A stretch of DNA of 41,395 bases from a virus: positions 1 to 41,395 of IMG/VR virus record IMGVR_UViG_3300023184_000251; one strand, given 5' to 3'. The notes under the pieces are model-generated. The model ran no database searches. It had not been told where the DNA came from and worked only from the letters and a program-made list of their open reading frames with translations. Shown one piece after another: positions 5,064 through 36,775 of the stretch; positions within the stretch are counted from its first letter, which is position 1, and every line of letters begins with the position of its first letter. The translations under genes and the position numbers were made by a program.

Positions 5064-5068
5064 TTTTG

Positions 5069-5077
5069 TGGTACTAT
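5069..5077 (+). promoter_or_regulatory. Candidate extended -10 promoter for the virion operon
   Basis: TGG-TACTAT is an extended -10 motif six bases after the TerL stop, in the 52-base gap before the 1565-aa gene. No good -35 is visible. GATATATCAC (5087-5096), half of the palindrome at 2657, lies just downstream. The ribosome site AGGACG (5103-5108) precedes ATG 5116. Confidence 0.35.
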
Positions 5078-5115
5078 GTCGTTACAGATATATCACGAGA
5101 TTAGGACGAATGTAG

Positions 5116-8100
5116 ATGGCAAAAAAGAAGCCTGATCCTGCTGCGGTAGCACAGAGGAAGCAAGAACGCGTCGCCTTTGTTCAAGCACATCCAAATCTTG
5201 CCCCGGAACAAGCACGTCAGCAATTTTATGTTCAAACTCGTACGGAAGAACTCTCTGCTGCAGGTAAGTCGGTAGACAAGCAAGCTCTTCGCGACAAGTT
5301 CCAAAGTGGACAAGTTTCTCGTGAAGGGTTCTACACCCCTGGGGATATAGCTCGGTTTAATACTTCTGGTTCCAACAACGGTGGCAGTCTTGCCGACAGC
5401 AAAAAAGATACCGTTAGTTCGCCAACCAGTCTTACAACTCCTACCGGAGTAAAGATGCCTGCTGCTGGGTATATGGCACCAAAGACAACTACTGCTCTCG
5501 GTCTTGAAGTTACACCAACCACTACAGTGCCTTCTTCTCCGACAACAACTCCAACCACAATACCGGTAACCGACGCACCCCCAAAGACCGTACTTAAAAC
5601 CGGCAACATTTCTGGACCAAACGTGCGCATGGGAACGAAGAAAGCACAACCAACGAAAACACCAGCTCCGGCAGCAACAACCAATGTAACTTGGAATCCA
5701 AATCAAGCACCGCTTAGTTATGGAGTGCCAGATTCCGTTATTGGGATTCCTGGTAAAGATTACAAAACATCCGGCACGGGAGACAAAAATCTTACCGCTT
5801 ACAGTAAACAAAAAGAAAAAAACAGAAAAGAGTTTGGCAATACTTCGGGTTTGATTGCAGAAAATTTAATTACCGGAGCCGCCGCTACTGCTGGTGGTGC
5901 TATTGGTTCTGTGGTTCCTGGAGTTGGAACAACAGTTGGTGCCGTAGTTGGTAGTGCTATTGGTACGGGTCTTGGAAACTTTGCATACAACATGTTTGAC
6001 CCAATTGACACATCAGAGAGTTCTGGTGAAGCAGGTAAAAGAGCTGGAATCTATGGTGCTGTAGATCTAGTCGGCGGTGCAGTAATTTCAGGTGCTTCCA
6101 AGGTAATAGCTCCTCGTGTCGGACCAACATTAGGCAAAGTATTTAACAAAGTGCTTGGTCCAAACACAGACGACGCTGTAAACGCAATTGATTATTCGCC
6201 GTTCGCCCGAGATATGAACGTCCCCCGAACATCATCAGCTGTTGATCCCATTGCTCGACAACAAGCAGCAGACGCCGCAACAAAACAACCAAAGGTTATT
6301 ACAAAAATTCAATCAACCATTACAAAAATTCAAAACAACCGTAGGGGATACACGCCTAAAATTGCTCCTTGGGCAGATGATGCCGCATCAGCTGAAACAT
6401 TTTACAGGACTCCATTAGGTGACCTAAAAAGTAGCAATGCTCCTCTTGGCGAAATTCGTGCTCCAAAGTTTGAGCGTATGCCGGAAACAGTTGAAACACC
6501 AAAGCCACTTACTAGTGCAGACAGAATGGAAAACGCTGCTGCCGTAGTAGCAAAAAACAGCGAAACTAAACCACCGGTAGCACAAGCAGTTGACCCAAAC
6601 CCATCGTTGCATGCTTCTAAGCAAGCAGAAATGCAAGCTGCAGTGCCGGAAACTTCTACAATCGAAGTACGTACAAAAGATACTTTGCCAGCAACCAAAG
6701 CGCCAAAAGCAAATACGCGTAAGCCAAGAGCAAAAAAAGAACCAGTAGTTGAACAACCAAAACCAATAATTGAGACATCGTCTGGTGCTACAGCTCCTCG
6801 CGATTTTGCTGCAGAATACAGAGCAAAAACAGCAGCGGAAGATTTTGAATACGATCAAGGACTTACCGACTGGGTAAACAACAATCCAAAAGAAACAGAT
6901 GACATTCTTTATGATGTGTTTTTTAATGGTTCCGGAGGGGGAAAAACAGATTTAAATAATTTGTCTGGCATATCCGGACAAAGGGTTTCTCGTTCAGATC
7001 TATTTGATGGCAATCGTTTTGGACGTAGATCGCCAATGGACCGCGGCATGTTTATTGAAGATGCCGGTGCACAACCGGTTGGCAATCTAAATCCAACTCC
7101 AGCCCCAGCAGCAAACATCCGCGAACATAAAGGCATCAGGTACACGGTTGACCCAAGCAACCCAATGATAGGCATAGAAGAAGGTACTGGGGTACAGTTT
7201 ACCTTGCGTAAAACCAAATCCGGCAAGCCAGGCACGCCTCACTTTGATGGAGTAGACGTTGCTACCGGAAAACCTAAACTTCGTACGCCAAGAACAAAAT
7301 TTGCCAATGCTACTGAACGTAAAGCTGCAGAAAAAGCTGCAGAACAAACAAGAACCGCTGCAACGTCAACCAAAAGAGCTGAGGGCGCTGTGACAACAGA
7401 ACAAGCTCTTAAAGCAGCCCAAGAAAAAGCAAATGCTGGAAAAGTAGTAACACAGGGAGAATTCCCAACAGCACCAAAACTACGCGGCAAGAAGTTGCAG
7501 CAGTATAACCGCGATGTTGCTTCGGGTAAAATACAACCGGAAGAACCATTTGTTTATTCAGTTAAGGAAGTAACGGAAAAGCCGGTAATTGGGGAAGGTT
7601 CAATGCCTCGCAAGCCAGTAACTTCCTTGGGTACTACAAAAGCACCGACAAAAACAATGGACATTGAAACGTTTAAAAAACTGAGCGACGATATGTTCAA
7701 TCGTTCCAATGCACAGTTATCAGACCTTGCTGACAGTCGTGTAGCCAACGCACAATATGATGCCATTGTTGCTGAGTATGGAAAAGATTCAGTAGACAAA
7801 ATTATTAAATCCGTTCGTTTCCGTCAACAAGTTGCCGATAAAAAACTCTTTGCCGGAGAACTTAACGACGTAATGGGCGCTGGACAAAGAGAAGCTCTAC
7901 AAAAGGCAAATGATTTAGCCGACGCAAGATCGTACGCAGATTGGTTCTCATCACGAGAAGCACAACAAATGAGGGTAGACAATCCTGCACTGTTTTCCGA
8001 AATTGTAAACAAGCCGGAAAATGTTGCTAAAAGAGCACTGATTACAAAGACAACAAACTCTGATGTGGCTAGCACTATGCCGCGTAGTTTCCGTCAATCC

Positions 8101-9813
8101 CGTGTTGATATTAACGACAGTCTTGCTCAACAAAGAACAGCACTACAAGGAGCAAGAAGCGAAGAAGATGTTGCTCTTGGACTCAACGCTGACAAACCAA
8201 CAGCTGCCCAGGTTGACGCTGCGTTTACTGACGCTGGTAACGCAGATGATTTTGCTGTTCCGTTTGGTCAAAACGATTATGAAGGGAAAATTGCTTGGGC
8301 TGACAGTAGGCCATCCCAACCAATTCGAGACACAGCATGGGAACGCTCCTACGCAGCTAAGAAAAAAGCTTCTGCGGACGCTGCTGAAACAATAGCCAAC
8401 GGATCCGATGACGAGGTTTTGGCTCTTGCTAAAAAATATGAGATTCCGGTTTCTGGTGAAACCCCTGCTGATGTTGCCAAACTAAGAAGCGAACTTGCTC
8501 GCAGACAAAATAGGTCTGCTAGTGGTCCTGGAAGAACTTCAGAACGGAGCGTTCGTTTGGATGGGGTACCACCACCAGTTAAGCCCCTACAAAGTGATTT
8601 GATATCACAAGGACTTAACAAAACAGAAATAAAAGCAGCGTACGATGCACACCGCAAGGCGTATCAGGATTGGGCAGATGAAGCTGTTATGCAGGAAAAC
8701 CCATTTGCAAATCAATTTAGGTTTGCAGAAGCACCAAAACCGCGTGCGAAAGCTGTTCCTGTAAACCGTACAACTGTGCACCCGAACGGAACACCAAAAC
8801 CAACATTGACAGAGTTGCCACTAAAGCCTAACGAAGTAGAACTTAGAGCAAAAATTGGCAAAGACGGTTACACAAAAGCAGACATGGACGCCGAGATTGC
8901 AGCCAATACAAAACTCCGTGCTGAGATTTCTGTTAAACGTCAACAGGAAGCTGCTGCTATAGCCAAATGGAATAACGAAGCAGTTACAACTACCACGCCA
9001 AAGAAGCCACATTGGACCGAAGCTGCAGATGCAAAAGACGATGCATGGGGCATGGCCAACCGCAAACTACTTGCTACAGATCCAGAAAAGTGGCATGCAA
9101 TACGACAAGCCGCTGAAGAAAGAAGAATTGCCCAACACGTGGCAAATATTTCTACGCCAGAGGGAGAAGCGGCTCGGGCTGGTGCTGCAGCAGAAAGAGC
9201 ACGTATGGCGGCGCACAGAGCTGAACTCAAAATGCCGGCCATACAGCCAGATAGAAATGTTTTGCAGCAAGAAGATTGGGTGGCCGAAGTATCAAGAAGG
9301 TTCTTTGGAAATACAAACGCACAAGCACCTACCATCCCGGTAGCGCGCACTCCTCGCAGTGCAATGCCGGAAGTTTCTGTCGCTGATTGGGAAGCAAACG
9401 TAAACCAAAGATTCAATAATCCATCAAGTGACATACCAAGATTGCGACGACCAGGCGCGCCTAATCGTCCTTTCGAGGCCGGAAAAGATACCTTGGGACA
9501 ACTCAATATGAACCCAGGACAAATAGGAATGTCCGGAGCAGCAAATGATTTGGCTGCTGCACAAGCACGTCAAAGCTCACAAAGCGGTACAAGCGCACTA
9601 TCTGGATATGTAGATGATGTTTCAGAATCTGTTCAACAACTAAAAGCAGAGTTGGGTACTCTTGCCAGCAAACTTAATAGCGCTAAAACACAAGCACAAC
9701 AACGAAAAATTACTGGACAAATGCGCAACATTCAGGATGAAATTAACCTCCGAGAAACTTCTCGTATTTCTGGAGAAAAAGACAATTATGAATATGATCT
9801 AGGATTGGACTAA
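5116..9813 (+). CDS. Giant putative internal virion/ejection protein (1565 aa)
   Basis: Between TerL and the portal lies a 1565-aa protein with no enzymatic domain I can name. The N-terminus is Lys/Gln-rich and helical; about residues 85-200 are a Thr/Pro/Ala-rich disordered region. A Gly/Ala zipper-like membrane-active stretch follows (around 252-330, LITGAAATAGGAIGSVVPGV and on). Very long Ala/Lys/Pro/Glu-rich segments alternate with short helices, and a coiled coil (KAELGTLASKLNSA...) comes near the C-terminus, which ends NYEYDLGLD. Such composition, size and position match ejection or inner-core proteins of short-tailed phages that cross the cell envelope during DNA entry (inference). ATG 5116 has AGGACG upstream. 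The stop abuts the portal ATG. Confidence 0.75.
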   Translation: MAKKKPDPAAVAQRKQERVAFVQAHPNLAPEQARQQFYVQTRTEELSAAGKSVDKQALRDKFQSGQVSREGFYTPGDIARFNTSGSNNGGSLADSKKDTVSSPTSLTTPTGVKMPAAGYMAPKTTTALGLEVTPTTTVPSSPTTTPTTIPVTDAPPKTVLKTGNISGPNVRMGTKKAQPTKTPAPAATTNVTWNPNQAPLSYGVPDSVIGIPGKDYKTSGTGDKNLTAYSKQKEKNRKEFGNTSGLIAENLITGAAATAGGAIGSVVPGVGTTVGAVVGSAIGTGLGNFAYNMFDPIDTSESSGEAGKRAGIYGAVDLVGGAVISGASKVIAPRVGPTLGKVFNKVLGPNTDDAVNAIDYSPFARDMNVPRTSSAVDPIARQQAADAATKQPKVITKIQSTITKIQNNRRGYTPKIAPWADDAASAETFYRTPLGDLKSSNAPLGEIRAPKFERMPETVETPKPLTSADRMENAAAVVAKNSETKPPVAQAVDPNPSLHASKQAEMQAAVPETSTIEVRTKDTLPATKAPKANTRKPRAKKEPVVEQPKPIIETSSGATAPRDFAAEYRAKTAAEDFEYDQGLTDWVNNNPKETDDILYDVFFNGSGGGKTDLNNLSGISGQRVSRSDLFDGNRFGRRSPMDRGMFIEDAGAQPVGNLNPTPAPAANIREHKGIRYTVDPSNPMIGIEEGTGVQFTLRKTKSGKPGTPHFDGVDVATGKPKLRTPRTKFANATERKAAEKAAEQTRTAATSTKRAEGAVTTEQALKAAQEKANAGKVVTQGEFPTAPKLRGKKLQQYNRDVASGKIQPEEPFVYSVKEVTEKPVIGEGSMPRKPVTSLGTTKAPTKTMDIETFKKLSDDMFNRSNAQLSDLADSRVANAQYDAIVAEYGKDSVDKIIKSVRFRQQVADKKLFAGELNDVMGAGQREALQKANDLADARSYADWFSSREAQQMRVDNPALFSEIVNKPENVAKRALITKTTNSDVASTMPRSFRQSRVDINDSLAQQRTALQGARSEEDVALGLNADKPTAAQVDAAFTDAGNADDFAVPFGQNDYEGKIAWADSRPSQPIRDTAWERSYAAKKKASADAAETIANGSDDEVLALAKKYEIPVSGETPADVAKLRSELARRQNRSASGPGRTSERSVRLDGVPPPVKPLQSDLISQGLNKTEIKAAYDAHRKAYQDWADEAVMQENPFANQFRFAEAPKPRAKAVPVNRTTVHPNGTPKPTLTELPLKPNEVELRAKIGKDGYTKADMDAEIAANTKLRAEISVKRQQEAAAIAKWNNEAVTTTTPKKPHWTEAADAKDDAWGMANRKLLATDPEKWHAIRQAAEERRIAQHVANISTPEGEAARAGAAAERARMAAHRAELKMPAIQPDRNVLQQEDWVAEVSRRFFGNTNAQAPTIPVARTPRSAMPEVSVADWEANVNQRFNNPSSDIPRLRRPGAPNRPFEAGKDTLGQLNMNPGQIGMSGAANDLAAAQARQSSQSGTSALSGYVDDVSESVQQLKAELGTLASKLNSAKTQAQQRKITGQMRNIQDEINLRETSRISGEKDNYEYDLGLD

Positions 9814-11568
9814 ATGCTAACTGCTGAACAAATTGTTGCGCTCTATGAAGAGCGCAAGCGCATTCAAGGGCCACTGCATGAGCAAATGAAGAAGGTTCGA
9901 GAACTGGCTAACGGCGATGTGATTATCCCGCTTAACGAGCTAGACAAGTCAGCCACAGCATCGGTAGCTAACCTGTTGGTCGTTGGTCTGGATCAGATGT
10001 CGATGCGTGTTGCATCAACCATGCCGGCACCGTACTTTCCTCCAGTTAAAGACGGAAGCGAATGGAGCAAAAAGACCGCCAAAACGCGCAAACAAGCAAT
10101 GCAAGCAATGTGGGCCCACAACAGAATGCCACAAAAAATGCGCCGCCGGGCACGACATCTACTTGGCTATGCTTCGTCACCTGTTTATTTGAAGCCAGAC
10201 TTTGGAACATTTATACCTAAGTGGACCGTAATTAACCCACTTAATACATACGCTGCACCAGTTGATGACATGGATGATCCACTTCCAGCTGATTGCATTT
10301 TTACATATCGCGCAACAGCCCAGTACTTGCTATCTCGATATGGTGAAGATGTTATTGGAAACTTACGTATGGGACGCGTTAGTCAAGACAGCAAATTTAC
10401 CATGCTGGAGTATTGTTCGGCTACCGACATTCAACTAGTTATTGTTGGTGCCGACCACGACAACGATTTTAACCGTGCAGAGAACTCGGGTGTACCTACG
10501 CTGCTACTTGAGTCCATTCCAAACAGAACCGGACGCCCATTAGCCGTTGTTCCGAACAGGATCACATTGGACAAACCACGTGGTCAATTTGATGGTGTAC
10601 TTGGCATGTATTACACACGTGCTCGTTTGCAGGCTCTTACCGAGATTGCTATTGAGCGTGGTATCTTTCCAGAAGAATACCTTGTTGCTCGACCAAACGA
10701 AAACCCGGTCATTGTTCAGGTGGCTGACGGCAAATCCGGTCAACTAGGAATTGTCAAAGGTGGAGATCTTCAACAACAACAGATCAATCCTGGCTACAAA
10801 ACGGACACTGCCTTGGATCGTTTGGAACGGCAGGAAAGACTTGAGGGATCGATTCCTGCAGAGTTTGGCGGCGAGTCCGCAAGCAATATCCGCACAGGTC
10901 GTCGCGGAGAAAACGTTCTGTCTTCGACAGTGGACTTCCGCATCCAAGAAGCTCAAGCAACATTTGAGTCGTCACTCCTTGAAGAAGACAAGATTGCTAT
11001 TGCCATAGAACAAGCATACTGGGGCAAGCAAGCAAAGTCCTTTTATATCCCTGGCCGCAGTGGGGGCTATACATCGTCGTATGTTCCCAATAAGATCTGG
11101 GAAACAGACTTCCATTACGTTTCTTATTCTGCTGCTGGTTCAGATGTAAACAGTCTTGTTGTTTCGTTGGGTCAGCGTCTTGGTGCCGGATTGATGTCGC
11201 TTGAATCGGCACGTGAGTCCGATCCAATGATTGACGATCCAGACATGGAACACGACAGAATTATTGCTGAGGGTATTGAGTCTGCATTGCTCACATCCAT
11301 TCAGCAACAAGCAGTAGACCCAATGGGTCCATACCAACCAGATGACTTGGCCTATCTAACGCGCCTTGTTATCGAAAAGGACTTGCCGCTGTATGAGGCC
11401 GTATCACGCACACAGCAGCGCGCACAAGATCGACAAGCAGCCATGGCTCCAATGGGAGCCCCAGAAACAATGCCTGGCCTTGCCGCACCAGGGATGGGTG
11501 CTGAGCAACCAGTAGCACCTGGTGGCGGAGGTCTGGACAGTCTCCTTGCTCAACTAGGAGGAAAATAA
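9814..11568 (+). CDS. Portal protein (584 aa)
   Basis: This is the dodecameric head vertex through which DNA is packaged and released. The length of 584 aa is usual for podovirus and siphovirus portals. It opens with a helical region (TAEQIVALYEERKRIQ). An 'LLVVGLDQMSMRVASTMPAP' region and a 'HLLGYASSPVYLKPDF...INPLNTYAAP' segment follow, as in portal cores where 'NPxxxY' follows a strand-rich domain. Later come a helical stem with 'GRRGENVLSSTVDFRIQEAQATFESSLLEED', typical of portals, and a Gly/Pro/Met-rich tail. The ATG follows the previous TAA directly, with AGGA upstream, and the next gene overlaps by TAATG. Confidence 0.85.
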   Translation: MLTAEQIVALYEERKRIQGPLHEQMKKVRELANGDVIIPLNELDKSATASVANLLVVGLDQMSMRVASTMPAPYFPPVKDGSEWSKKTAKTRKQAMQAMWAHNRMPQKMRRRARHLLGYASSPVYLKPDFGTFIPKWTVINPLNTYAAPVDDMDDPLPADCIFTYRATAQYLLSRYGEDVIGNLRMGRVSQDSKFTMLEYCSATDIQLVIVGADHDNDFNRAENSGVPTLLLESIPNRTGRPLAVVPNRITLDKPRGQFDGVLGMYYTRARLQALTEIAIERGIFPEEYLVARPNENPVIVQVADGKSGQLGIVKGGDLQQQQINPGYKTDTALDRLERQERLEGSIPAEFGGESASNIRTGRRGENVLSSTVDFRIQEAQATFESSLLEEDKIAIAIEQAYWGKQAKSFYIPGRSGGYTSSYVPNKIWETDFHYVSYSAAGSDVNSLVVSLGQRLGAGLMSLESARESDPMIDDPDMEHDRIIAEGIESALLTSIQQQAVDPMGPYQPDDLAYLTRLVIEKDLPLYEAVSRTQQRAQDRQAAMAPMGAPETMPGLAAPGMGAEQPVAPGGGGLDSLLAQLGGK

Positions 11569-11909
11569 TGCCAAACTATCCAAATAGGTCAGACCTGCGT
11601 GATGTTGCTACCTACGGCGACAAAGCAAACATAACTCGCGCCAAACAAGCAATGCCAACAGGCAAACCGCCAACAGAAGTTAAATATACGGCACCAGGAT
11701 CACTGCCGGATCTACTGCGCCCAACAGAACGACCAAACTCTCCAATTACCACAGGGGCAGATTTTGGTGCTGGGATAAACTCTTTACAAGCTGGGATACC
11801 GCAAAGGTCAGCAGGACAATCAGCCATAGATGAAATTGCGGCTATTTCTCGAATGTACCCAACAGAAGAATTAACATCACTTCTTGACAAGTATCGGAAA
11901 AATCAGTGA
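11568..11909 (+). CDS. Small protein after the portal (113 aa)
   Basis: Unknown family. The 113-aa product is Pro/Thr/Ala-rich and likely disordered for about 75 residues, then has a helical end (AIDEIAAISRMYPTEELTSLLDKYRKNQ). It overlaps the portal stop by TAATG and the next gene by GTGA, so all three are coupled. Probably a minor virion or assembly protein. Confidence 0.75.
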   Translation: MPNYPNRSDLRDVATYGDKANITRAKQAMPTGKPPTEVKYTAPGSLPDLLRPTERPNSPITTGADFGAGINSLQAGIPQRSAGQSAIDEIAAISRMYPTEELTSLLDKYRKNQ

Positions 11910-14900
11910 GATGGCAAACAGGATTATCACCGGAGGCGTATGACGCCATATTGTTTGGTGGTATAGAAAGACCGCCTACTGCAGTTCAAGACGGTGGTCG
12001 TGTTGCCGCAAATATGGCAAACATTTCAGCCAGGGCTCCATGGTTACAACCAGACACAATGCTGGCATTGGCCAAAAGCAACGCAAGTAACGAAGCTATT
12101 GATGAGCTTGGTTACATGTCTGGAACACAACAAACAAGTAATACCGCCGCAAGTGTCGCTGCCAACACACTTGGATTTGTGGGTACGGGAATAAAAAAAG
12201 TAGTTGGATTTTTGGGTGGGGCACTTAATATTGCAAAACTGATTGGTGGAGCAGTAACTCCAGATATGGCAGCAAAACCACTTTCTGCAACAGGCGATCT
12301 TTTACATGCCGGATTAATGACTACAAAAAAACCACTTCGTTATATTACTGCTGGACTTGACACAGTAACCGAAATGGTGGATTACACCGCAGCATCGGTT
12401 TTGGGTGGCCTAGGTGTACCAATTGAATATACGGAAGAACCAGTTGGTGGATTCTGGGACTCTACATCAATTGGGCAATTGTTATCTCATCCCGAAGATC
12501 AAGGTGAAGGATTTATAATTAGCCAACAAATGCGAGAAGCACAGGCCAGAGAGGCACGTGCTCGTCGAGGAGAAATAAACGGATCTGCATTTACAATTGG
12601 TAGAGGCATGGCCAGTGTTGTTTCAACCCCAGGCACGGTTATGTACAACCGCATCTCCGGAATAATTGACGTAATCAAAGTATTGTCTATTCCAGACCCA
12701 GCAAAAGGCGTTGCCAAAGTTGTTCGAGCCGGCTTGCGTGGAGCAAAAGTTGCCGAAGAAGTTATTCCTATTGTGTCCAAGGCATCGCGCGCTGGGTTAT
12801 TTGAGGATCTGGCTGTAGCAATTGATGACACAAGAATGGCCAGCGTAAGAGCGGCAGCAGACATGGGTCTTTCAAGAACGCTTACCGGTGGAGAAGTAGA
12901 CCTTGTTAAGTTTAACGACTTCTTTACACGTGACCCACGCGCCATCAAATTTACTGACTCAATGATTAAAGAGACAGACGCCGGAAAGATTTTTACCGAA
13001 ACATTTAATTCAAAGGTCGACCCAGATGTTGCTTACATGTTGAGCAAAGCTACAACAAAAGATCAAGTTGTTGCCGCGTTGACCGGCGGATATGAATATG
13101 GTTCACCAGTTATTGACACCACTGTTAAAGGGCTTCAAATGTCCATTAGGGAAAAAGCAACGGCTCCATTTTCTCGATCTCGTTTGTTTGCTGAGTTTCC
13201 AGACAGAATGGTTAAATTAACCGGCACCCCAACAGAACGCGCTCACGCAATTAAAACCATGGCTTTGAGTCTTAGGGCCGGCGGTGTACAACCGGAAGAC
13301 GTAAATGCGTTTTTAAGAAAAGCTGTTGAAGCCACATCTTCTGTTGGTGGACACGTTGCCGCAAAAGAAACAGACGATTTATTTAATGATTTTTTAACCA
13401 AATCAATTATCTCTAATGGCGTAACTCCAGAAGCCGCTCAGTTGGCAGTTACCAAAGGACAAGAAACAATGGACATTATGAGGTCATACCTCAGAAATCG
13501 TCAAGGAATTAACACGGACAACGGTTTTGCATGGGATTTAATGAACAATCCAGTTATCAAAGCATCTGTACCACCAGCAGTTCACAACGAGTGGTTGTCC
13601 AGAATGGCTGGAGCTGGTGGAGGATACGGAGAAAACTTATCGTTTGGTAGCGCAATTCAACATGTTGACTTTATGGATAGAACTCGCGTATTGCCAGACC
13701 CACGGCAGCTACGCCGGTTAACACGCAATCCATTTATATCAAAACACCTTGAGGCCGCTGGAGAAAAATTAAAGAGTGACGGCGGTACGTTATTTGCAAA
13801 ACGAGCATTTGTTGGAAAAAAAACTAAACTTGAAATAATCACCGATAGAAAACAATACAAAATACTTCAGGACGAAATTGATGTTTTAATGAAACCATAC
13901 GTTGGGGCAACAGTTCCACCTGCCGTTATGGGTGATGTATTGGTCAAACAAGCAGCCCAAACAGCACTTAAGAGCGAAAAGAAAGTTCTTACTGGAGAAA
14001 TGCGGGCACCGTTTGTTGCTACAGAACTTGTCCAAAATGCTATTTGGAAACCACTCACATTGATGACCGGTGGATACATGATGCGCAACATGCTTGATGC
14101 CCAAGTGCGTATGGCACAGGCCGGCATTGGGTCATCCAACATTAGGTTTGGTTCTGGAATATTGCATCCAATGCAGTATATTTCTCTTGTCATTGGTCGA
14201 ACCAATAAAACCGACATTATGGGCAACTTAATTACTGCAAGCGGACGTAGGGGTGGAACCAAAGGATCTGCATACAAAGCCCTTGAAGAACTTAACTCAG
14301 AACTTGCTGAGCGCATATCAGGTTCCGCCAGAGTACGTGGCATGGCATCCGCAGACGTAGCAGACCACACACGAAAAACAAACAGTTGGCACGTTGCCCA
14401 AAGATCAGACCCACGTGCTGGATTGATAAACCACACAGAAGGCATGGTGCAACAGTTACAAAAAATTCACGCAGACCCGCTAAGTCATATTGTTGCAAGA
14501 ATGGCAACCAGTGGCGCCAGTGATGACTCAATAGCAGCACAGGTTGTGCGCAAAATCATGGAAGATAAAAAGATTTTTACTGATATTAATAATAAATTTA
14601 AAAGTGGTATTGAGGTGTGGGATAACAACACAGCGCAACATCTTCGCTTGCCGGTTGTTGATTTAGATGAAGTTAGGGCCACCAGCGGAGTAGATGAAGT
14701 TAAAAAAATCCTTGATAGTTACGCTCGCAAAGTAATTGTTGGTAACGCAAATACACATATTGGCGGTATGGATTCAATGAGTTTTATTGCTGCTTATGAC
14801 AGAACTCCCGTTACGGAAATCAACGGTTTAATTCGACGCGTTGCCGCAAAACATTCCGACATGCTTGACACTGGGGGTTTTCCAGTTGTTGCTGGTGGGG

Positions 14901-16960
14901 TTGATATTGGTATCGAAGTAACACTCCCTGGTGGTGTCAAAGGAATTGTGGTCAACACAATGAATTCCGGAAACGAAGGTGTTGTTGTCCCATTTAGAGA
15001 AGCTGGTTCTTTAACACGCGTAAAGGGCGGAACCGAATATACAAAAGCAATGATTCACAACGCTCCACTATACGACGAAACCACCAAAAAAGGTTTACCG
15101 CATCTTGTTGCCCGCGAAAGAAGTGGTGGAGATATTGCCGATATCAAACCAGGAGAATTAATAAGTAAGTCTTGGGACAAAACTACCGGGATGTTTTTCA
15201 ATGGTCTTAACGAATTTACTAGCAGGCATCTTGAGCGGTCACCAACTTTTAGACACTTCTACTACAAGAACATTCTTGATAGCACAGATGACTTAAGTAA
15301 TGCAGCAGCAGCAACCATTCTCAGGGATCTTGGTGCAAAAGCAGCCGCAGATGGTGTAAGCATCTCAAAGTTTGTTGGCAACAAACAATTAGTAAAAAAG
15401 CTTGAAGCGATCGTTGCTAACCCAGCACACAAAGGTGTTGGCACAATTGCCGAAGTTGATGACTACGCAAAGATGCTTGGCCTTAAACAAATGGAAGACC
15501 TGCTTTTTGATGCTTCAAACACCAACAACTTAAAGGATATTTTACGCGTTATTGTTCCGTTTGGAAACGCATGGAACGAAGTTATCGGTAGATATTCAGC
15601 AAAATTAATGGATGACCCAATCCATATGTATCGTCAGTTTCAACGAGTAGAAACAGCATTTGAAGAGGCTGATCCAGACATGGATGGTCGTGGAATGTTC
15701 TATCGGGATCCACAAACAAACGAACTGATGTTTATGTTCCCCCTATCTGGAGCACTAACCCAGGTGTTTGGTGCTGAGTATTCTGCTGGTCTGTCAGCCC
15801 CCGTAAAACGTCTGTCGCAAGGTATCAACGTGTACCCAGGTATTGGGCCAGTTGCGCAATTTGCTGCCAGTTATTTCATTAAAAGCACGCCAAAAAACGA
15901 TGAAATTCTTCAAATGTTGCTTCCATATGGAAAGTCAAAAGACGTTGGCGATTTAATGCCTGGATGGATAGCAAAAGTACAAGATGCATTGGCACAGAAC
16001 GAAACATGGACTGCGGGTATTTACGCCAATACAAATCTAGAAACCATACGAGCTGAATCCACCACAGGCAAATATGATCTTTCCAAACCAGAAGATAAAC
16101 AACGTTTGTTGGATGTTTCTGCCAAAAAGGCTAGGTGGCTTACATTCTTGCGCGCAGCGTCACAATTCTTTGGTCCAACCTCCGGTGGGTTGGAGTTTAA
16201 GGTTGATCTGCCCGGAGGAGATGTGTATGTAAAAGAGCTTATTAAAGAGTTTCACTCAATGCAACAAGATGATTACGATTCTGCAGTTGGGCGATTTATT
16301 GGTTTGCATGGAGAAAACGCCGCATTGTATATATCCTCAAAAAGCGAATCAACACAACAAGGTTTAGAAGCAACGGACGATTTTGGTGATTGGGAGCGCA
16401 ACAACCAAGACCTTATTGGGGCGTACTCACGTACTGCAAACTACTTAGCACCATCGTTTGGTGAGTTTGATTTTAAGGTTCAAGAACGCCAGATGGAAGA
16501 AGGCAAGAGAGTACCAGTATCTGATGAAAGATTAATCGAGCTTGCCCATATTCGTCTTGGTTCCTCTAGGTATCGTGCAGCCAAACTAGCAATGGGTCAA
16601 TATCCAAGCGCCAAAGAAAGAGAAATACTTGCAAACTACCGTGTTGCATTGAGTGATCAATACCCAGGTTTTACTCCACGTGCGGAATTCGTAACAAACG
16701 AACATTACAATGACCTTGCCGAACTTGCTAAACTTGTAAAAGATCCACGCGTTGAATGGAATCCCGCCGTTCCAGCAATTACACAGTGGCTAAAAGCACG
16801 CACAGAAGTGATGAATGCCAATAACGTACCGACATTAATGTCTAAAAAAATGACTTCCGCAAGGGCTGATTTGTTTGTACTTGGAGCCAACCTTGCTGCA
16901 ACAAATCCATCTTTTGATAGAATTTGGCAAAGATTGCTTTCCCAAGAGGTAGAAGATTAA
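11906..16960 (+). CDS. Giant putative virion protein (1684 aa)
   Basis: The largest gene. The GTG start at 11906 overlaps the previous stop (GTGA), with GGAAAAA upstream; I prefer it because no in-frame ATG lies close. A hydrophobic Gly-rich stretch occurs near residues 88-120 (NTLGFVGTGIKKVVGFLGGAL). Long helical regions follow, then a beta-like part around 990-1060 (a DIGIEVTLPGGVKGIVVNTM segment), and a conserved-looking hydrophobic block near 1210-1310 (DILRVIVPFGNAWNEVIGRY, then GMFYRDPQTNELMFMFPLSG). That resembles large inner virion proteins of podoviruses and big tail-less gene clusters. No protease, lysozyme or polymerase motif was seen. Likely ejected with the DNA. With the 1565-aa protein it frames the portal gene. 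Confidence 0.75.
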   Translation: MRWQTGLSPEAYDAILFGGIERPPTAVQDGGRVAANMANISARAPWLQPDTMLALAKSNASNEAIDELGYMSGTQQTSNTAASVAANTLGFVGTGIKKVVGFLGGALNIAKLIGGAVTPDMAAKPLSATGDLLHAGLMTTKKPLRYITAGLDTVTEMVDYTAASVLGGLGVPIEYTEEPVGGFWDSTSIGQLLSHPEDQGEGFIISQQMREAQAREARARRGEINGSAFTIGRGMASVVSTPGTVMYNRISGIIDVIKVLSIPDPAKGVAKVVRAGLRGAKVAEEVIPIVSKASRAGLFEDLAVAIDDTRMASVRAAADMGLSRTLTGGEVDLVKFNDFFTRDPRAIKFTDSMIKETDAGKIFTETFNSKVDPDVAYMLSKATTKDQVVAALTGGYEYGSPVIDTTVKGLQMSIREKATAPFSRSRLFAEFPDRMVKLTGTPTERAHAIKTMALSLRAGGVQPEDVNAFLRKAVEATSSVGGHVAAKETDDLFNDFLTKSIISNGVTPEAAQLAVTKGQETMDIMRSYLRNRQGINTDNGFAWDLMNNPVIKASVPPAVHNEWLSRMAGAGGGYGENLSFGSAIQHVDFMDRTRVLPDPRQLRRLTRNPFISKHLEAAGEKLKSDGGTLFAKRAFVGKKTKLEIITDRKQYKILQDEIDVLMKPYVGATVPPAVMGDVLVKQAAQTALKSEKKVLTGEMRAPFVATELVQNAIWKPLTLMTGGYMMRNMLDAQVRMAQAGIGSSNIRFGSGILHPMQYISLVIGRTNKTDIMGNLITASGRRGGTKGSAYKALEELNSELAERISGSARVRGMASADVADHTRKTNSWHVAQRSDPRAGLINHTEGMVQQLQKIHADPLSHIVARMATSGASDDSIAAQVVRKIMEDKKIFTDINNKFKSGIEVWDNNTAQHLRLPVVDLDEVRATSGVDEVKKILDSYARKVIVGNANTHIGGMDSMSFIAAYDRTPVTEINGLIRRVAAKHSDMLDTGGFPVVAGGVDIGIEVTLPGGVKGIVVNTMNSGNEGVVVPFREAGSLTRVKGGTEYTKAMIHNAPLYDETTKKGLPHLVARERSGGDIADIKPGELISKSWDKTTGMFFNGLNEFTSRHLERSPTFRHFYYKNILDSTDDLSNAAAATILRDLGAKAAADGVSISKFVGNKQLVKKLEAIVANPAHKGVGTIAEVDDYAKMLGLKQMEDLLFDASNTNNLKDILRVIVPFGNAWNEVIGRYSAKLMDDPIHMYRQFQRVETAFEEADPDMDGRGMFYRDPQTNELMFMFPLSGALTQVFGAEYSAGLSAPVKRLSQGINVYPGIGPVAQFAASYFIKSTPKNDEILQMLLPYGKSKDVGDLMPGWIAKVQDALAQNETWTAGIYANTNLETIRAESTTGKYDLSKPEDKQRLLDVSAKKARWLTFLRAASQFFGPTSGGLEFKVDLPGGDVYVKELIKEFHSMQQDDYDSAVGRFIGLHGENAALYISSKSESTQQGLEATDDFGDWERNNQDLIGAYSRTANYLAPSFGEFDFKVQERQMEEGKRVPVSDERLIELAHIRLGSSRYRAAKLAMGQYPSAKEREILANYRVALSDQYPGFTPRAEFVTNEHYNDLAELAKLVKDPRVEWNPAVPAITQWLKARTEVMNANNVPTLMSKKMTSARADLFVLGANLAATNPSFDRIWQRLLSQEVED

Positions 16961-26947: not shown

Positions 26948-27577
26948 ATGGGTATTACTCCTGCTTACGGTGTTGGTTCGTTAAAGACTGGTGTTTGCAC
27001 TAGCACTACTCGCCCTGCTGTTCCTTTTGACGGTCAAACAATCAGTGAGACTGATACCGATTTACTAAAGTTGTATAACGGTACGGCATGGGTTAGTGCT
27101 GGCGGTATGACTTTGCTTTCCACGACAACGCTTACAGGTGCAAGCACAACAATTAGCAGTATTGACCAAACTTACACAGCGTTACAGATTTATATTACCA
27201 ACGCTTATTCGTCTGTCACTACTGGCTACTGCCGTTGTTATATTAACGGCGATAGCACGGCGGGTAATTATGTTTCAAGTACAAATCGTTTTAGAGGCGG
27301 TACAAGTGGTTTGGCTGACGATACTTTTACTTGGGCTGGCTGGCCGTTTCATAACAGCACTGCAAGTAATTTTATTTCCGTTAATTTACCTAACTATGCA
27401 AGTACTACAGTAAAAAAAGTTTGGTCTACTTTTGGTAGAGGATTGACCGATACTGTAGTTGGTGGTTGGAATGGTTCTGGTATATGGGATAACACGGCAG
27501 CAATAACTTCTTTACAATTTATTAACAGCGCAGGCAGTTGGTCGGCTGGCACAGTCTTAATTTATGGGGTGAAATAA
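26948..27577 (+). CDS. Tail fibre paralogue A (209 aa)
   Basis: First of three related fibres. The N-terminal ~50 residues contain 'TTRPAVPFDGQTISETDTDLLKLYNGTAW', shared with B (27783) and C (28615). The middle is variable (Gly/Ser/Thr/aromatic beta-rich). The C-terminus ends 'AGTVLIYGVK', matching 'GGTIRVYGYANS' in B and 'GGTVRVYGYQNS' in C. The conserved ends with divergent middles suggest a shared attachment module and a variable receptor-facing module. Confidence 0.75.
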   Translation: MGITPAYGVGSLKTGVCTSTTRPAVPFDGQTISETDTDLLKLYNGTAWVSAGGMTLLSTTTLTGASTTISSIDQTYTALQIYITNAYSSVTTGYCRCYINGDSTAGNYVSSTNRFRGGTSGLADDTFTWAGWPFHNSTASNFISVNLPNYASTTVKKVWSTFGRGLTDTVVGGWNGSGIWDNTAAITSLQFINSAGSWSAGTVLIYGVK

Positions 27578-27786
27578 TGTCTAATCCACTAATCCGCATA
27601 CACGACATGGCAACAGGCGAAACCATTGACCGTGAAATGACAGACACCGAACACGCCGAATACAAAGCGACACAAGCCGAAGCCAAAGCACAAGCCGATG
27701 CTCTTGTTGCCCGTACTGTTGCCCGTGAAGCGTTGCTCACCAAACTTGGTATCACTGATGAGGAAGCAAGGATGTTGCTGTCATGA
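27577..27786 (+). CDS. Small fibre-associated protein a (69 aa)
   Basis: ATG 27577 overlaps the fibre A stop (TAATG); an in-frame ATG 39 bases upstream is inside fibre A. The product starts SNPLIRIHDMATGETIDREM, is highly charged and helical in the middle (Glu/Ala/Lys), and ends with the phage motif 'VAREALLTKLGITDEEARMLLS'. That C-terminal motif recurs in small proteins next to fibre genes, probably assembly chaperones or trimerisation helpers. Related to the 64-aa gene at 28421. Confidence 0.65.
   Translation: MSNPLIRIHDMATGETIDREMTDTEHAEYKATQAEAKAQADALVARTVAREALLTKLGITDEEARMLLS
27718..27755 (+). repeat. 38-base exact repeat, copy 1
   Basis: These 38 bases encode the shared end motif VAREALLTKLGIT of the 69-aa protein and are identical to 28541-28578 in its 64-aa relative. 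Base-perfect identity between otherwise diverged genes points to recent recombination or gene conversion. Confidence 0.9.
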
Positions 27787-28412
27787 CAATTTCTGCTACA
27801 ACACAAGGTCTACGCATGGGTGTAGCCACATCGTCGTCTCGACCTACGGTTCCGTTTGATGGTCAAGTTATTTCGGAGACTGATACCGATTCGTTGCAGG
27901 TGTATAAGGGTACGGCGTGGGGGCAGGCTAGTGGTTTGGTGTTGATTAAAGCACAAACTATTGGTACAGGTGTCACAAGCGTTGCGGTTACTGCTGCGTT
28001 TAGTGCTACTTACGATGCCTACAAAATTACTGTTACTGGTGGTGTTGGTAGCGCCAACTCAAATATAAATATGGTTTTAGGTTCTACTACAACTGGTTAC
28101 TATTGGTGTTCTGTATCTTCAGGTTTTGACGGTACAGGGCCTTATTCTGCTGGCGCAGAAAACATTAGTTCGTTTATTGCCACTGGATTATCGCAAACCT
28201 CAACACTTACATTAAACTTAGATGTACTTGCACCTTATTTGTCAAAAATTACTACTGTTATGGGCGCACGAACAGGCGCTGTCGCTGGTTCTGGCGGTGC
28301 ATATTACGGTTTCCAAAACACAACAACATCATTCACCGATTTCACTTTGTCTCCAACAAGCGGAACATTGACAGGCGGAACTATTCGTGTTTACGGATAC
28401 GCAAACAGTTAG
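27783..28412 (+). CDS. Tail fibre paralogue B (209 aa)
   Basis: ATGA overlap with the preceding small gene. 'TSSSRPTVPFDGQVISETDTDSLQVYKGTAW' matches paralogue A; 'AFSATYDAYKITVTGG', 'TTTGYYW' and the C-terminal 'SFTDFTLSPTSGTLTGGTIRVYGY' match paralogue C. The mid-region is more like C than A. Beta-rich, likely trimeric tip protein. Confidence 0.75.
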   Translation: MTISATTQGLRMGVATSSSRPTVPFDGQVISETDTDSLQVYKGTAWGQASGLVLIKAQTIGTGVTSVAVTAAFSATYDAYKITVTGGVGSANSNINMVLGSTTTGYYWCSVSSGFDGTGPYSAGAENISSFIATGLSQTSTLTLNLDVLAPYLSKITTVMGARTGAVAGSGGAYYGFQNTTTSFTDFTLSPTSGTLTGGTIRVYGYANS

Positions 28413-28420
28413 GGCATGAC

Positions 28421-28615
28421 ATGACATACAAAATACAAATAGACGACTTAGTGCGTGACGCAACCGAAGAAGAAGCCGCCGCAATAGACGCACAAATAGC
28501 GGAAGCCGAAGCCCGTGCAGAGGCAGCCGCAGCCAAAGCCGTTGCCCGTGAAGCGTTGCTCACCAAACTTGGTATCACCGCTGATGAAGCACAACTATTG
28601 TTGGGAGGTATGTAA
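28421..28615 (+). CDS. Small fibre-associated protein b (64 aa)
   Basis: Acidic Glu/Ala-rich helix (EEEAAAIDAQIAEAEARAEA) ending in 'VAREALLTKLGITADEAQLLLGGM', the same end as the 69-aa gene, while the N-terminus is unrelated. The stop overlaps the next ATG (TAATG). Same inferred chaperone or trimerisation role. Confidence 0.65.
   Translation: MTYKIQIDDLVRDATEEEAAAIDAQIAEAEARAEAAAAKAVAREALLTKLGITADEAQLLLGGM
28541..28578 (+). repeat. 38-base exact repeat, copy 2
   Basis: Identical to 27718-27755. The two copies lie 823 bases apart in direct orientation, so recombination between them would delete or duplicate exactly one fibre gene (paralogue B) with its partner. Confidence 0.9.
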
Positions 28616-29301
28616 TGCCGTTGTCTACTGTTTTGGGTGCGCAGTCTTTGGTTCAGCCTGCTGTGTGTACTACTGCTACTCGTCCTGCGTCACCGTACAC
28701 AGGTCAAGCAATTTATGACACGACTATTTCTGCACTGTTGATTTGGAATGGTACAGCGTGGACAGGTACAGGTGGTTTGCAACTTGTTACTACTGCAACT
28801 TGTTCGTCTGGTGGTACAGCAGTTGGTGGTGTGGTCACTATTGGTAGCGCAGTTTCTAGTGTGACTGTGGCTACTGCGTTCAGTGCTGCTTATGACGCAT
28901 ACAAAATTATTGTTACTGGCGGTGCTGGTTCAACTAATCAAGGATTAACACTTACTTTAGGTTCAGCCTCTACGGGCTATTACGCAACGTATTTTCGTAC
29001 TGCAAGCGCATCATCAGCAACTTATGACGGGCAAGTCACAAGCAACGGTGCTGGTTGGAATGAATTTGGGTTTGGCACAACGAGCGGTATAGGTATGAAC
29101 ATAGAATTACTGAGCCCGTTTTTGGCTAAAACAACTATTGCAAGCGGTGTTTACACAAGAGGCAATCAAACGGTTCTTGGTGCAGGAAGTGTAAGCGGTT
29201 TTCTAAATGACACCACAAGTTATACAGCATTTACAATTACGCCTTCTACTGGCACAATGACAGGCGGAACAGTACGCGTGTACGGATACCAAAACAGTTA
29301 A
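28615..29301 (+). CDS. Tail fibre paralogue C (228 aa)
   Basis: 'TTATRPASPYTGQAIYDTTISALLIWNGTAW' aligns with the N-terminal module of A and B. 'AFSAAYDAYKIIVTGGAGSTNQGLTLTLGSASTGYYATY' and the end 'SYTAFTITPSTGTMTGGTVRVYGYQNS' align with B. Probably the outermost or alternative fibre. It precedes the secreted Thr/Pro protein. Confidence 0.75.
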   Translation: MPLSTVLGAQSLVQPAVCTTATRPASPYTGQAIYDTTISALLIWNGTAWTGTGGLQLVTTATCSSGGTAVGGVVTIGSAVSSVTVATAFSAAYDAYKIIVTGGAGSTNQGLTLTLGSASTGYYATYFRTASASSATYDGQVTSNGAGWNEFGFGTTSGIGMNIELLSPFLAKTTIASGVYTRGNQTVLGAGSVSGFLNDTTSYTAFTITPSTGTMTGGTVRVYGYQNS

Positions 29302-29304
29302 GAT

Positions 29305-30771
29305 GTGCGTAGTTCTCGTTGGCTGATATTTGCGCCTGTAGCAATACTTGCACTGTTCGCACAACCCGCCAAAGCAGACGTTACAGGAGACTGGACATAC
29401 AGCCAATCGCAAGCATGCAACGGTTCTGTTGAAGTAATTGGCACTTCGATTACCCTTCACGGACCTGACTACGGTGGTTGCAGCGGTCAAGCGCATTGGG
29501 TGAAGATTGAAACCACAATCCCTGCGGATGTGGACACAATAGATTTTACTTGGACATACCAAACCAACGATGGCTGGTCATACGACCCACCACAGTACGG
29601 TATCAATGGGGTTTACACGTTGATTACGCAACAAAACAATGCGACAGGTTCAATGTCAATACCTGTTCAAGAGGGCGACATCTTTACGTTTCGTCAGTAC
29701 TCGACAGACTCTTGCTGCCAGCCAGGGCATTTAACTATCAGCAATCTTTCTCTTTGGGATGGATTAACAACCACTACAACCACGGTTCCACCCACTACAA
29801 CTTTGCCACCCACTACAACTACGGTTCAGGAGACAACAACAACATGGACAACCACAACTTCATCCACGACTACAACGACGACCACTACTACTATTGCACC
29901 CTCTACGACTGTGCCTGTAACACCAAACTGGACTACTACGACACTTCAAACAATCGCCACAATCCCAGTAGAGCCAACAATGCCAGACCCGCCACCAACG
30001 GTTCCTCTACCACAAATAGAGCCGCCAGCCATGCCAGAGATACCACCCCTCGTACTACCAGAGATTGAAACATATCCACCAGAAACATTAGAACTCCCTC
30101 CCGACGTTGTGGACACAATGCCTTACCCTGTGGACACATACCCTACTGTTTATCCACCCGATACCCTACCGTTTGTCGGGCTACTACCAGAGCCACCAGA
30201 CACCATGCCTCTGCCACCCGACATGATGCCTTTGCCACCAGACATGCCACTAGACGCACCAGAACCCCCTCTAATGCCCCCAATGGAACTTATTGAGGAA
30301 TTACCACCTGAACTCGTAGAAGCCCTCCTAGACGCTGGCGACACATCTATACCGTTAACGGAAGAGGAGTTCACCGCCGTTGTGGACACCATTGAAAACC
30401 TAGCCCCCGAAGAAGCAGTAGCACTCATCACCCAAATCCTTGCCACCGCAGTAACAGCCGACCAAGCCGAAGCCCTCGCTTCTAACCCTGAAGTGTTGGC
30501 TGTCATCACCGAAGAACAAGCCACAGAAATCTTTGAAACTATCGAAGTAGCACAACTAGATGAGACACAGATAGCCGAACTCACAGCAGCAATCCAAGCA
30601 GCCCCAACCAAAGTCCGTAAAGCCTTTGAAAAAACCATCAACATTTTCGGCGGATTTGACGACTATGTGCCAACAGGCTCCAATATCCCTGTAGGAGAAC
30701 GACGAACCCTCATCGCCATTGCAGCAGGGACAACCCTCACAGCAGCAAGTAGTAAGATAAAAAGGAAATGA
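29305..30771 (+). CDS. Secreted Thr/Pro-rich surface or adhesin-like protein (488 aa)
   Basis: GTG start at 29305, four bases after the previous stop. Residues 1-25 are a clear Sec signal peptide (SSRW + ILALFAQPAKA, cleavage expected after AKA). Residues ~26-150 form a Cys-bearing beta-sandwich-like domain with aromatic turns ('CNGSVEVIGTSITLHGPDYG', 'ADVDTIDFTWTYQTNDGWSYDPP'). Residues ~152-215 are an almost pure Thr/Pro stalk (TTTTTTVPPTTTLPP...). Next is a Pro/Met/Leu-rich stretch, then an acidic helical domain (ELPPELVEALLDAGDTSIPL..., 'AEALASNPEVLAVI') and a hydrophobic, basic C-terminus (LIAIAAGTTLTAASSKIKRK). It is probably exported to the host surface, since virion proteins lack signal peptides. 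Possibly an anti-superinfection, adhesion or lysis-timing factor. Thr-rich runs occur widely in actinobacterial secreted proteins. Confidence 0.75.
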   Translation: MRSSRWLIFAPVAILALFAQPAKADVTGDWTYSQSQACNGSVEVIGTSITLHGPDYGGCSGQAHWVKIETTIPADVDTIDFTWTYQTNDGWSYDPPQYGINGVYTLITQQNNATGSMSIPVQEGDIFTFRQYSTDSCCQPGHLTISNLSLWDGLTTTTTTVPPTTTLPPTTTTVQETTTTWTTTTSSTTTTTTTTTIAPSTTVPVTPNWTTTTLQTIATIPVEPTMPDPPPTVPLPQIEPPAMPEIPPLVLPEIETYPPETLELPPDVVDTMPYPVDTYPTVYPPDTLPFVGLLPEPPDTMPLPPDMMPLPPDMPLDAPEPPLMPPMELIEELPPELVEALLDAGDTSIPLTEEEFTAVVDTIENLAPEEAVALITQILATAVTADQAEALASNPEVLAVITEEQATEIFETIEVAQLDETQIAELTAAIQAAPTKVRKAFEKTINIFGGFDDYVPTGSNIPVGERRTLIAIAAGTTLTAASSKIKRK

Positions 30772-30935
30772 AACGCCTAGCTAACCTCATCAAAGATAAC
30801 GCCTGGACATACGCAGGCACGGGTCTAGTTTTGATCACCTTGTCTGGCCCTACACTCCGGCAAGCGGTATGGGTGGTTGGTGTATCATTGGTATTACACG
30901 CAGCATTAACTCTCAGCACAAAGGAATCAGAATGA
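30768..30935 (+). CDS. Small two-helix membrane protein, holin-like (55 aa)
   Basis: ATGA overlaps with both neighbours. After a basic start (KRLANLIKDNAW) there are two hydrophobic segments, about residues 15-29 and 34-50, with a short polar turn between. Size and place just before the next membrane gene and the endolysin suggest a holin or antiholin. Confidence 0.65.
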   Translation: MKRLANLIKDNAWTYAGTGLVLITLSGPTLRQAVWVVGVSLVLHAALTLSTKESE

Positions 30936-31168
30936 AAAAAGCACAAGACATCGCAGGTCGTATCGTGGCAGTGTTCCTGTCCTCAGCATTGGCGATCGTC
31001 GGCGGCAGTGCCGTTATTGCCCCAGAGTTGGAAATTTGGAAGTCGGCTGTGCTTGCTGGTTTTGCTGCATGTGCAACCGTTATTCAAAAGTTGGCGCAAG
31101 CATCGCTCGATGGCAAGTTGACAATGGAAGAAATCAACAGCGCATTCGGCGCAAAACCTTCCAAGTAA
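30932..31168 (+). CDS. Putative holin (78 aa)
   Basis: Start ATG at the ATGA overlap, with GGAAT upstream. Two predicted membrane spans, about residues 10-29 (RIVAVFLSSALAIVGGSAVI) and 36-54 (WKSAVLAGFAACATVI), then an amphipathic Lys/Asp tail with 'LDGKLTMEEINSAF' near the C-terminus. The 'DGKLT.EEIN..F' end is usual in actinophage membrane proteins beside endolysins. It would make the lesion that lets the endolysin out. Endolysin starts five bases later. Confidence 0.7.
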   Translation: MKKAQDIAGRIVAVFLSSALAIVGGSAVIAPELEIWKSAVLAGFAACATVIQKLAQASLDGKLTMEEINSAFGAKPSK

Positions 31169-31172
31169 AACT

Positions 31173-31700
31173 ATGGCGTACCCTGTTGTACCGGTCAAAC
31201 TGTGTAGTCACCTAAAAGGTGCCGTTCCAGGCAAATTAGCTGCAGAAAAACTACGCCAAACCGTAGGTGGCACACTCCACCATTGTGCTGCTGACGCTTG
31301 GGAAGCAATGGTAGAAGCAGCAAGCGTAGCTGGTATCAAATTGAGACCGACCAGCAGCGGCGACACATATCGCACACTGGAATTACAAACCAAAGCATTT
31401 TTTTTAAGGTACCAACTAGAAGACACCGGCAACCCAGACACACGCACCTTTGAGGGCAAGAAGTGGTACCTCAAAAAAGGTCAAGCTTGTTTGGCTACAC
31501 CGGGTAAGTCCCAGCACAACCTTGGCATTGCCGTAGATGTGGCTAACGCTAAGGGTCACACGCTGGATTGGATGCTAGCCAACGAACACCTGTTCGGTTT
31601 CTCACATGAGGTTCAATCAGAGCCGTGGCACATTCGATACACCCAGGGAAACAAAGTTCCGGCTGCAGTTGTAGCGCACCTAGCTACGAAAGCCGTATGA
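31173..31700 (+). CDS. Endolysin, VanY/M15 peptidase (175 aa)
   Basis: Cuts peptidoglycan stem peptides (D-Ala-D-Ala carboxypeptidase/endopeptidase family). S113-x-H115...D122 in 'SQHNLGIAVDV' and W152-H153 in 'EPWHIRY' are the zinc ligand motifs of the family; the Glu before W is the likely catalytic base. The first ~60 residues are helical and may help wall binding. No signal peptide, so it depends on a holin. The length of 175 aa suits a single-domain endolysin. Confidence 0.9.
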   Translation: MAYPVVPVKLCSHLKGAVPGKLAAEKLRQTVGGTLHHCAADAWEAMVEAASVAGIKLRPTSSGDTYRTLELQTKAFFLRYQLEDTGNPDTRTFEGKKWYLKKGQACLATPGKSQHNLGIAVDVANAKGHTLDWMLANEHLFGFSHEVQSEPWHIRYTQGNKVPAAVVAHLATKAV

Positions 31701-36499: not shown

Positions 36500-36775
36500 A
36501 TGGAGATATTAAGTTCCTGGTCACTTAAGAACAAAAGCTGGGAATGGCGAGAAGATGCTGCTTGTTTGGGCATGACCGGAGACATTTTTTTTGGCAAGCT
36601 TGGCTACAACCAAAAGCACATTGATGCAGCAAAAGCCGTGTGTAAATCATGCACGGTTAAGCGCGCCTGTTTGGAATATGCAAACGACAACGTGATGACA
36701 CACGGTGTGTGGGGTGGCAAAACACCTGCTGAAAGGCTTGTGTTGCTTGGGTTAAAGCGTTGGCCGGTGTCATGA
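36500..36775 (+). CDS. WhiB-family regulator (91 aa)
   Basis: Fe-S transcription modulator. C22, C48-x-x-C51, C57 with 'GVWGG' (69-73) are the cluster ligands and turn of the Wbl family, which exists only in actinobacteria and their phages. ATG 36500 has AAGGAG six bases ahead; a start at 36443 would add 19 residues and lacks a ribosome site. Wbl proteins bind sigma factor region 4, so this one probably redirects the host polymerase. Overlaps next gene by ATGA. Confidence 0.9.
   Translation: MEILSSWSLKNKSWEWREDAACLGMTGDIFFGKLGYNQKHIDAAKAVCKSCTVKRACLEYANDNVMTHGVWGGKTPAERLVLLGLKRWPVS

Follow-up and report, generated by a model that had tools for sequence, protein, structure and literature searches.

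Fibrillar adhesins are built from a signal peptide, an N-terminal adhesive domain, a stalk of folded repeats and a C-terminal anchor with an LPxTG motif (PMC8286594). Among phage proteins, Llp of T5 is a lipoprotein made early that binds one outer-membrane receptor and prevents superinfection as well as unproductive adsorption to lysed fragments (PMC9586334). LysZ, from the C. glutamicum phages CL31 and Cog, is a membrane-anchored extracellular protein of 177 aa with one TMD and a proposed N-in/C-out topology; its proposed targets in lysis are lipid-anchored glycans at the surface (PMC13056207). RI of T4 is an exported antiholin and is said to sense superinfection (PMC8385771). The protein described here, P1, can be set beside each of these. 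It resembles fibrillar adhesins in its signal peptide, its stalk, its probable C-terminal anchor and an N-terminal head that may be adhesive and in many relatives is PA14, but it is phage-encoded, its stalk is Thr/Pro-rich rather than made of folded repeats, it lacks LPxTG, it has a dedicated membrane partner of 55 aa (P2), and its gene adjoins lysis genes. If P1 masks its host, it would be, like Llp, an exported phage protein that stops unproductive adsorption at the host surface; however, it is not a lipoprotein, and the likeness would be one of mode of action. With LysZ it would share a membrane-anchored extracellular position in an actinophage and possibly an action on glycans, although P1 has 488 aa, a signal peptide, a probable C-terminal anchor, an exchangeable head and P2. 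Should P1 be a sensor, it would resemble RI in being an exported phage protein tied to a holin system.

The window analyzed is a stretch of 41,395 nucleotides, the IMG/VR record IMGVR_UViG_3300023184_000251. P1 is encoded on the plus strand, as are all the features of the module given below, at 29305..30771 (GTG at 29305, TGA at 30769-30771), 3 bases after the stop of the preceding gene, and its translation and IMG/VR relatives point to an exported, stalked surface protein. A predicted Sec signal peptide covers residues 1-24 (29305..29376; VRSSRWLIFAPVAILALFAQPAKA, followed by D), with a maximum Kyte-Doolittle (KD) value of 1.86 over 17 residues, and its pattern, RWLIFAPVAILALFAxxAxA, is kept across the relatives. 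After the predicted cleavage site (AKA, then DVTG) there is no Cys, so the lipobox of an Llp-type lipoprotein is absent. Next comes a head, termed type A and exchangeable within the family, which is a predicted beta-sandwich with four Cys (residues 25-153, 29377..29763; AlphaFold2, fold matches and dN/dS), followed by a Thr/Pro stalk (about residues 154-222, 29764..29970) and a Pro/Met-rich rod (about residues 223-331, 29971..30297), both read from the sequence. An acidic helical domain, the C domain (residues 348-462, 30346..30690), was defined from the AlphaFold2 model and alignment A1, and the chain ends in a hydrophobic helix (residues 463-482) and the basic tail KIKRK (together 30691..30768). 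A preliminary description of the locus had proposed this same order, from signal peptide and Cys-containing beta domain through Thr/Pro stalk, Pro/Met stretch and acidic helices to a hydrophobic and basic end, and both the sequence and the AlphaFold2 models bear it out.

The C-terminal 141 residues are modeled as helices (mean pLDDT 84.0), with helix 116-135 of the C-domain model corresponding to the hydrophobic end. This helix and its hydropathy suggest a membrane anchor, but the segment is weakly hydrophobic (mean maximum KD over 15 residues 1.73, range 1.44-2.16, in 122 members), so the anchor is given here as probable. A sortase anchor was considered and rejected: LPxTG is missing, most members have Y-x-P-x-G-S-x-x-P-V-x-x-RR before the hydrophobic end, and in the homologue from phage DSL-LC01 the chain runs on into P2. 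The family segment between the head and the last 140 aa varies from 37 to 260 aa and averages 43% Ser+Thr and 17% Pro; Pfam finds no repeat domain in the P1 stalk, which is low-complexity Thr/Pro instead. In 73 distinct full-length relatives, Cys is confined to the head (four in 70, two in 3), with none in the stalk or C domain, as would fit disulfides formed outside the cytoplasm. With a median dN/dS of 0.117, the head is under purifying selection and is the most constrained part of P1; the C-domain median is 0.252, and both values indicate selection at the protein level and an ORF that is not a product of chance.

Searches of Pfam and NCBIfam gave no family for P1. A match to PHROG 14018 ('major tail protein', E 0.15) fell on the Thr-rich stalk and was set aside as chance. 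The fold search with the C domain returned nothing confident in the PDB, and its confident matches were all uncultured-phage proteins; the PDB fold matches, all weak or of large rmsd, were discarded, and so was a sequence match to protein A constructs that scored low. Relatives of P1 are nevertheless numerous. A scan of IMG/VR recovered 62, and a second scan with the C-domain alignment 292, both scans being pattern-seeded and counting related contigs separately after removal of identical C-terminal sequences. By these comparisons P1 is a member of an unnamed phage family and not a singleton. Exactly one copy occurs per record in 26/26 whole records (25 from IMG/VR, plus DSL-LC01), and the P1-P2 module recurs in phages whose genomes measure about 37 to 210 kb. 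The sole GenBank phage record that matches P1 is Actinomycetia phage DSL-LC01 (Dishui Lake), apparently assembled from a metagenome; P1 was thus not found in any cultured phage. Uncultured Caudovirales proteins in BFVD (for example A0A6J5SZ50, A0A6J5P167 and A0A6J5Q6G8) have the helical C domain in common with P1 and belong to the same family. They are named uncharacterised, 'PA14', 'Fibronectin type III' or 'TerB_like', having been annotated singly, by head or weak domain, with no function assigned.

The phages with P1 are likely to infect actinobacteria, a reading supported by WhiB, an actinobacterial marker, which is encoded in 24/25 phage records and at 36545-36739 in the window. Tyrosine integrases were detected in 0/25 records and serine recombinases in 0/20, with positive controls, which together with the gene layout suggests lytic phages, bearing in mind that IMG/VR records can be fragments; lysogenic conversion by P1 is unlikely, since no integrases were detected. 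A pattern-seeded, non-exhaustive search of 84,980 bacterial and archaeal genomes gave 567 pattern matches with the alignment of the C domain and 18 with that of the type A head, of which 0 were confirmed as relatives. The preliminary description had suggested that P1 was acquired from an actinobacterial host and that its beta domain might be traced in host genomes. The host assignment is supported, but acquisition from the host is not: in this pattern-seeded search no C-domain or head match was confirmed, and the detectable family is phage-wide. Elsewhere in the window, the portal gene (9814-11568) has a very large ORF on either side, at 5116-9813 (1565 aa) and 11906-16960 (1684 aa); the former has weak tail-lysin-like PHROG matches only, and the latter has none.

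At least six unrelated N-terminal modules, among them a jelly roll resembling a CBM (type A), PA14 and an FN3-like domain, occur on the same P1 anchor. Typing of 84 proteins, with PA14 assigned by Pfam and FN3 and PPC by eye, gave 34 of type A (the P1 of the window), 42 of type B (PA14), 4 of type C, 2 of type D, and one each with an FN3-like (L046) and a PPC-like (L058) head. Pfam PA14 scores in type B lie around the cut-off of 24 bits, at 24.7 bits (E 2.2e-5) in L033 and just under it, at 23.4 bits, in L012. The exchange can be seen at the DNA level between a type A and a type B locus (L002 and L012), which are 94-100% identical across the stalk and on through the C domain, 91-99% in P2 and 80-98% in the signal peptide and just upstream, but only 34-58% identical in the head. 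The P1 head is a swappable cassette.

Details of the type A head come from its AlphaFold2 model, which is all-beta (mean pLDDT 84.9). Its best VIA structural match is the C-terminal domain of Vibrio VesC (6bqm; Z 11.8, rmsd 2.3, 111 aligned), and others include a hyaluronan-binding module (4d0q; Z 9.2, rmsd 3.0, 108 aligned) and a gingipain adhesin (3km5; Z 8.7, rmsd 3.4, 118 aligned). Various CBM, MAM and gingipain adhesin domains come next at Z of about 8-9; the CBM families as a group span Z of about 7.5-9, are interspersed with MAM, protease and other domains, and stay below membership level. Pfam and NCBIfam give no match to a named carbohydrate-binding family or recognised adhesive domain. 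The modeled fold would be of the CBM/adhesin kind, a fold that by itself gives no ligand or function. In type A pairs whose C domains are less than 50% identical, the heads are still 70% identical, and such stronger conservation of the head across distant phages is expected of a conserved ligand. Upstream of P1 in the window lie fibre-like genes at 26948-27577, 27783-28412 and 28615-29301, which have a similar N-terminal motif (TRPxxPxxGQxIxDT..LxxYxGTAW-like). The stretch 26948-29301 is a hypervariable locus, with complete turnover even where P1 C domains are nearly identical. Head type does not co-vary with these upstream genes: close pairs with the same head and with different heads share equally little upstream DNA, and a match of the head to the phage's own fibres is therefore not supported.

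P2 (30768..30935, 55 aa) starts in an ATGA, a 4-nt overlap with the stop of P1. This predicted membrane protein matches PHROG 29041, a family of unknown function (E 1.9e-37), and has no holin family match and nothing in Pfam or NCBIfam; its core, GTGxVLITLSGxT, is near-invariant. P2 was found by pattern directly after P1 in 55/56 loci, 42 of them with overlapping stop and start, and by tblastn in the last (L062). Conversely, loci picked on P2 alone have the P1 C domain in 51/51 distinct upstream ORFs. In 15 records selected by capsid, both genes are present in 9 and neither in 6 (Fisher p 0.0002), some of the 6 being fragments, with two records, of 38,961 bp and 31,372 bp, long enough to judge. 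P1 and P2 are obligately paired, being gained and lost together. In some phages they form one chain: the terminal 55 residues of the 944-aa P1 homologue of DSL-LC01 match PHROG 29041 (E 1.8e-5), and 9/9 distinct ORFs recovered by pattern from large phages, in which multi-domain heads also occur, are P1-P2 fusions. The fusion fits a P1 C-terminus and a P2 N-terminus that lie on the same side of the membrane, and we infer that the separate proteins are in physical contact; a physical complex is the direct prediction. The exchangeable head, the paired P2 and the fusion were all absent from the preliminary description.

P2 is followed by a gene for a holin-like protein of 78 aa (30932..31168; 4-nt overlap with the P2 stop) and then by one for a VanY/M15 peptidoglycan peptidase (31173..31700; Pfam VanY, 2e-14), a probable endolysin. 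The four genes thus stand in series with 4-base overlaps or gaps, ATGA overlaps linking P1, P2 and the holin-like gene. The assignment of the latter draws on a weak match of a longer ORF, 30869-31168, to PHROG 443 ('holin', E 0.021). The 78-aa protein is in PHROG 26427 ('nuclease'), a label that looks wrong for a small membrane protein. The best PHROG of the VanY protein is 16823 ('tail length tape measure protein', 4e-47, residues 904-1069 of 1948), which suggests that a VanY domain within tape measure proteins drives this label. In 107 family loci with enough flank, the 3 kb downstream contain a holin-like gene of the window type in 98 cases, VanY in 100 and at least one of the two in 103, in agreement with the earlier claim that P1 is encoded before the lysis genes. 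Lysis genes also remain near P1-P2 in several phages of 100-200 kb, though their order or strand differs. Two loci (L058 and L059, 5025-6502) have the holin-like gene ahead of P1 and P2 still directly behind it, and in a 202-kb phage (L239, 4583-8654) VanY lies ahead of the fused gene, itself preceded by an ORF (4583-5392) that looks glycosyltransferase-like by eye. Relatives that lack P1-P2 retain VanY with a different small holin-like ORF, so P1-P2 is an accessory unit. Gene order suggests that P1 is expressed late.

That P1 is an exported surface protein with the anatomy given above can be held with considerable confidence, its export and membrane topology being read from sequence. The preliminary description had likewise assigned P1 to the host surface and not the virion, and this is strengthened by the signal peptide, the head-only Cys (73/73) and the obligate membrane partner. 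For its role, we tentatively favor a late host-surface fibre with P2 in its base that masks glycans, an account that as a whole falls somewhat short of probable. P1 would be made late in lytic infection of an actinobacterium and exported by Sec. Its disulfide-bonded, carbohydrate-binding-like head would be held out on the Thr/Pro stalk and Pro-rich rod, while the C-terminal helix and P2, as one unit, would anchor the base in the cytoplasmic membrane. The head would bind conserved glycans of the infected cell's own envelope and cover them around lysis, so that progeny would not be lost by re-adsorbing to the dying cell or its debris, and late superinfection would be reduced. Glycan as the ligand and masking as the benefit are a guess from fold and context, and masking taken alone is a possible function, held less firmly than the account as a whole. 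It is preferred because the head is conserved and has a sugar-binding-like fold, and by analogy with T5 Llp. The lack of co-variation between head type and upstream fibre-like genes might count against it, since a head that masks the receptor used by the phage's own fibres might be expected to vary with them. Moreover, the early timing of Llp differs from that of P1, whose operon is probably late; the hydrophobic segment at the C-terminus is short as well as weak; and the persistent link to lysis genes, despite changes of order and strand, suits a role in lysis at least as well.

Such a role is nearly as likely as masking, because of the lysis neighborhood and P2. As an accessory lysis part, P1 could sense an outside cue and time lysis via P2, perhaps in the manner of RI and holin T in T4, or it could act on surface glycans and so aid the breaking of the envelope at release, as proposed for LysZ. 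The adjacency to holin-like or VanY genes in nearly all loci, kept nearby in several of the large phages, and the ATGA chain from P1 to the holin-like gene all favor it, and a near-invariant P2 core fused to P1 would suit one conserved output with exchangeable inputs. The precedent of RI, an exported antiholin, points the same way. RI itself is a small protein that lacks a stalk, an exchangeable head and a C-terminal anchor. Against a lysis role, the pair is dispensable for lysis as such, given the relatives that keep VanY and another holin-like protein without it; it occurs where the window-type holin-like gene is undetected; P2 lacks a holin family match; and a disordered Thr/Pro stalk would be a poor transmitter of signals. 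The most specific form of this proposal, a modular surface sensor in which an exchangeable sugar- or particle-binding head acts through the conserved helical base on P2 to set the time of host burst, is unlikely.

Adhesion to other cells ranks third, behind masking and lysis roles, and is unlikely. Here P1 would stick infected cells or debris to cells, particles or polysaccharide, and progeny would be released near new hosts. The order of N-terminal head, stalk and C-terminal anchor is the usual one in fibrillar adhesins of Gram-positive bacteria, where PA14 counts as one of the most frequent adhesive domains (PMC8286594); the multi-domain heads of the large-phage forms would also suit this use. 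On the other hand, the benefit seems small in dilute plankton, and P1 lies in the lysis region of phages in which integrases were not detected. A virion protein whose signal-peptide-like N-terminus is coincidental or otherwise used is very improbable: P1 does lie directly behind genes that weakly match virion structural families (PHROG 20787), but conservation of the signal peptide in distant relatives is unlike a protein made without an export signal, and the Cys limited to the head, the obligate membrane partner P2 and the fusion to it argue for export.

P1-P2 probably belongs among phage-encoded host-surface proteins, as a recurring and unstudied phage system. Freshwater actinobacteria are among the most abundant bacteria of lakes and, to our knowledge, their phages are almost uncharacterised. 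In this setting, a recurring two-gene phage module beside the lysis genes is predicted to display a swappable binding head at the surface of the host. A masking of glycans by P1 would account for the way in which these phages escape being lost on debris, and a tie to lysis would instead give lysis timing an external input.
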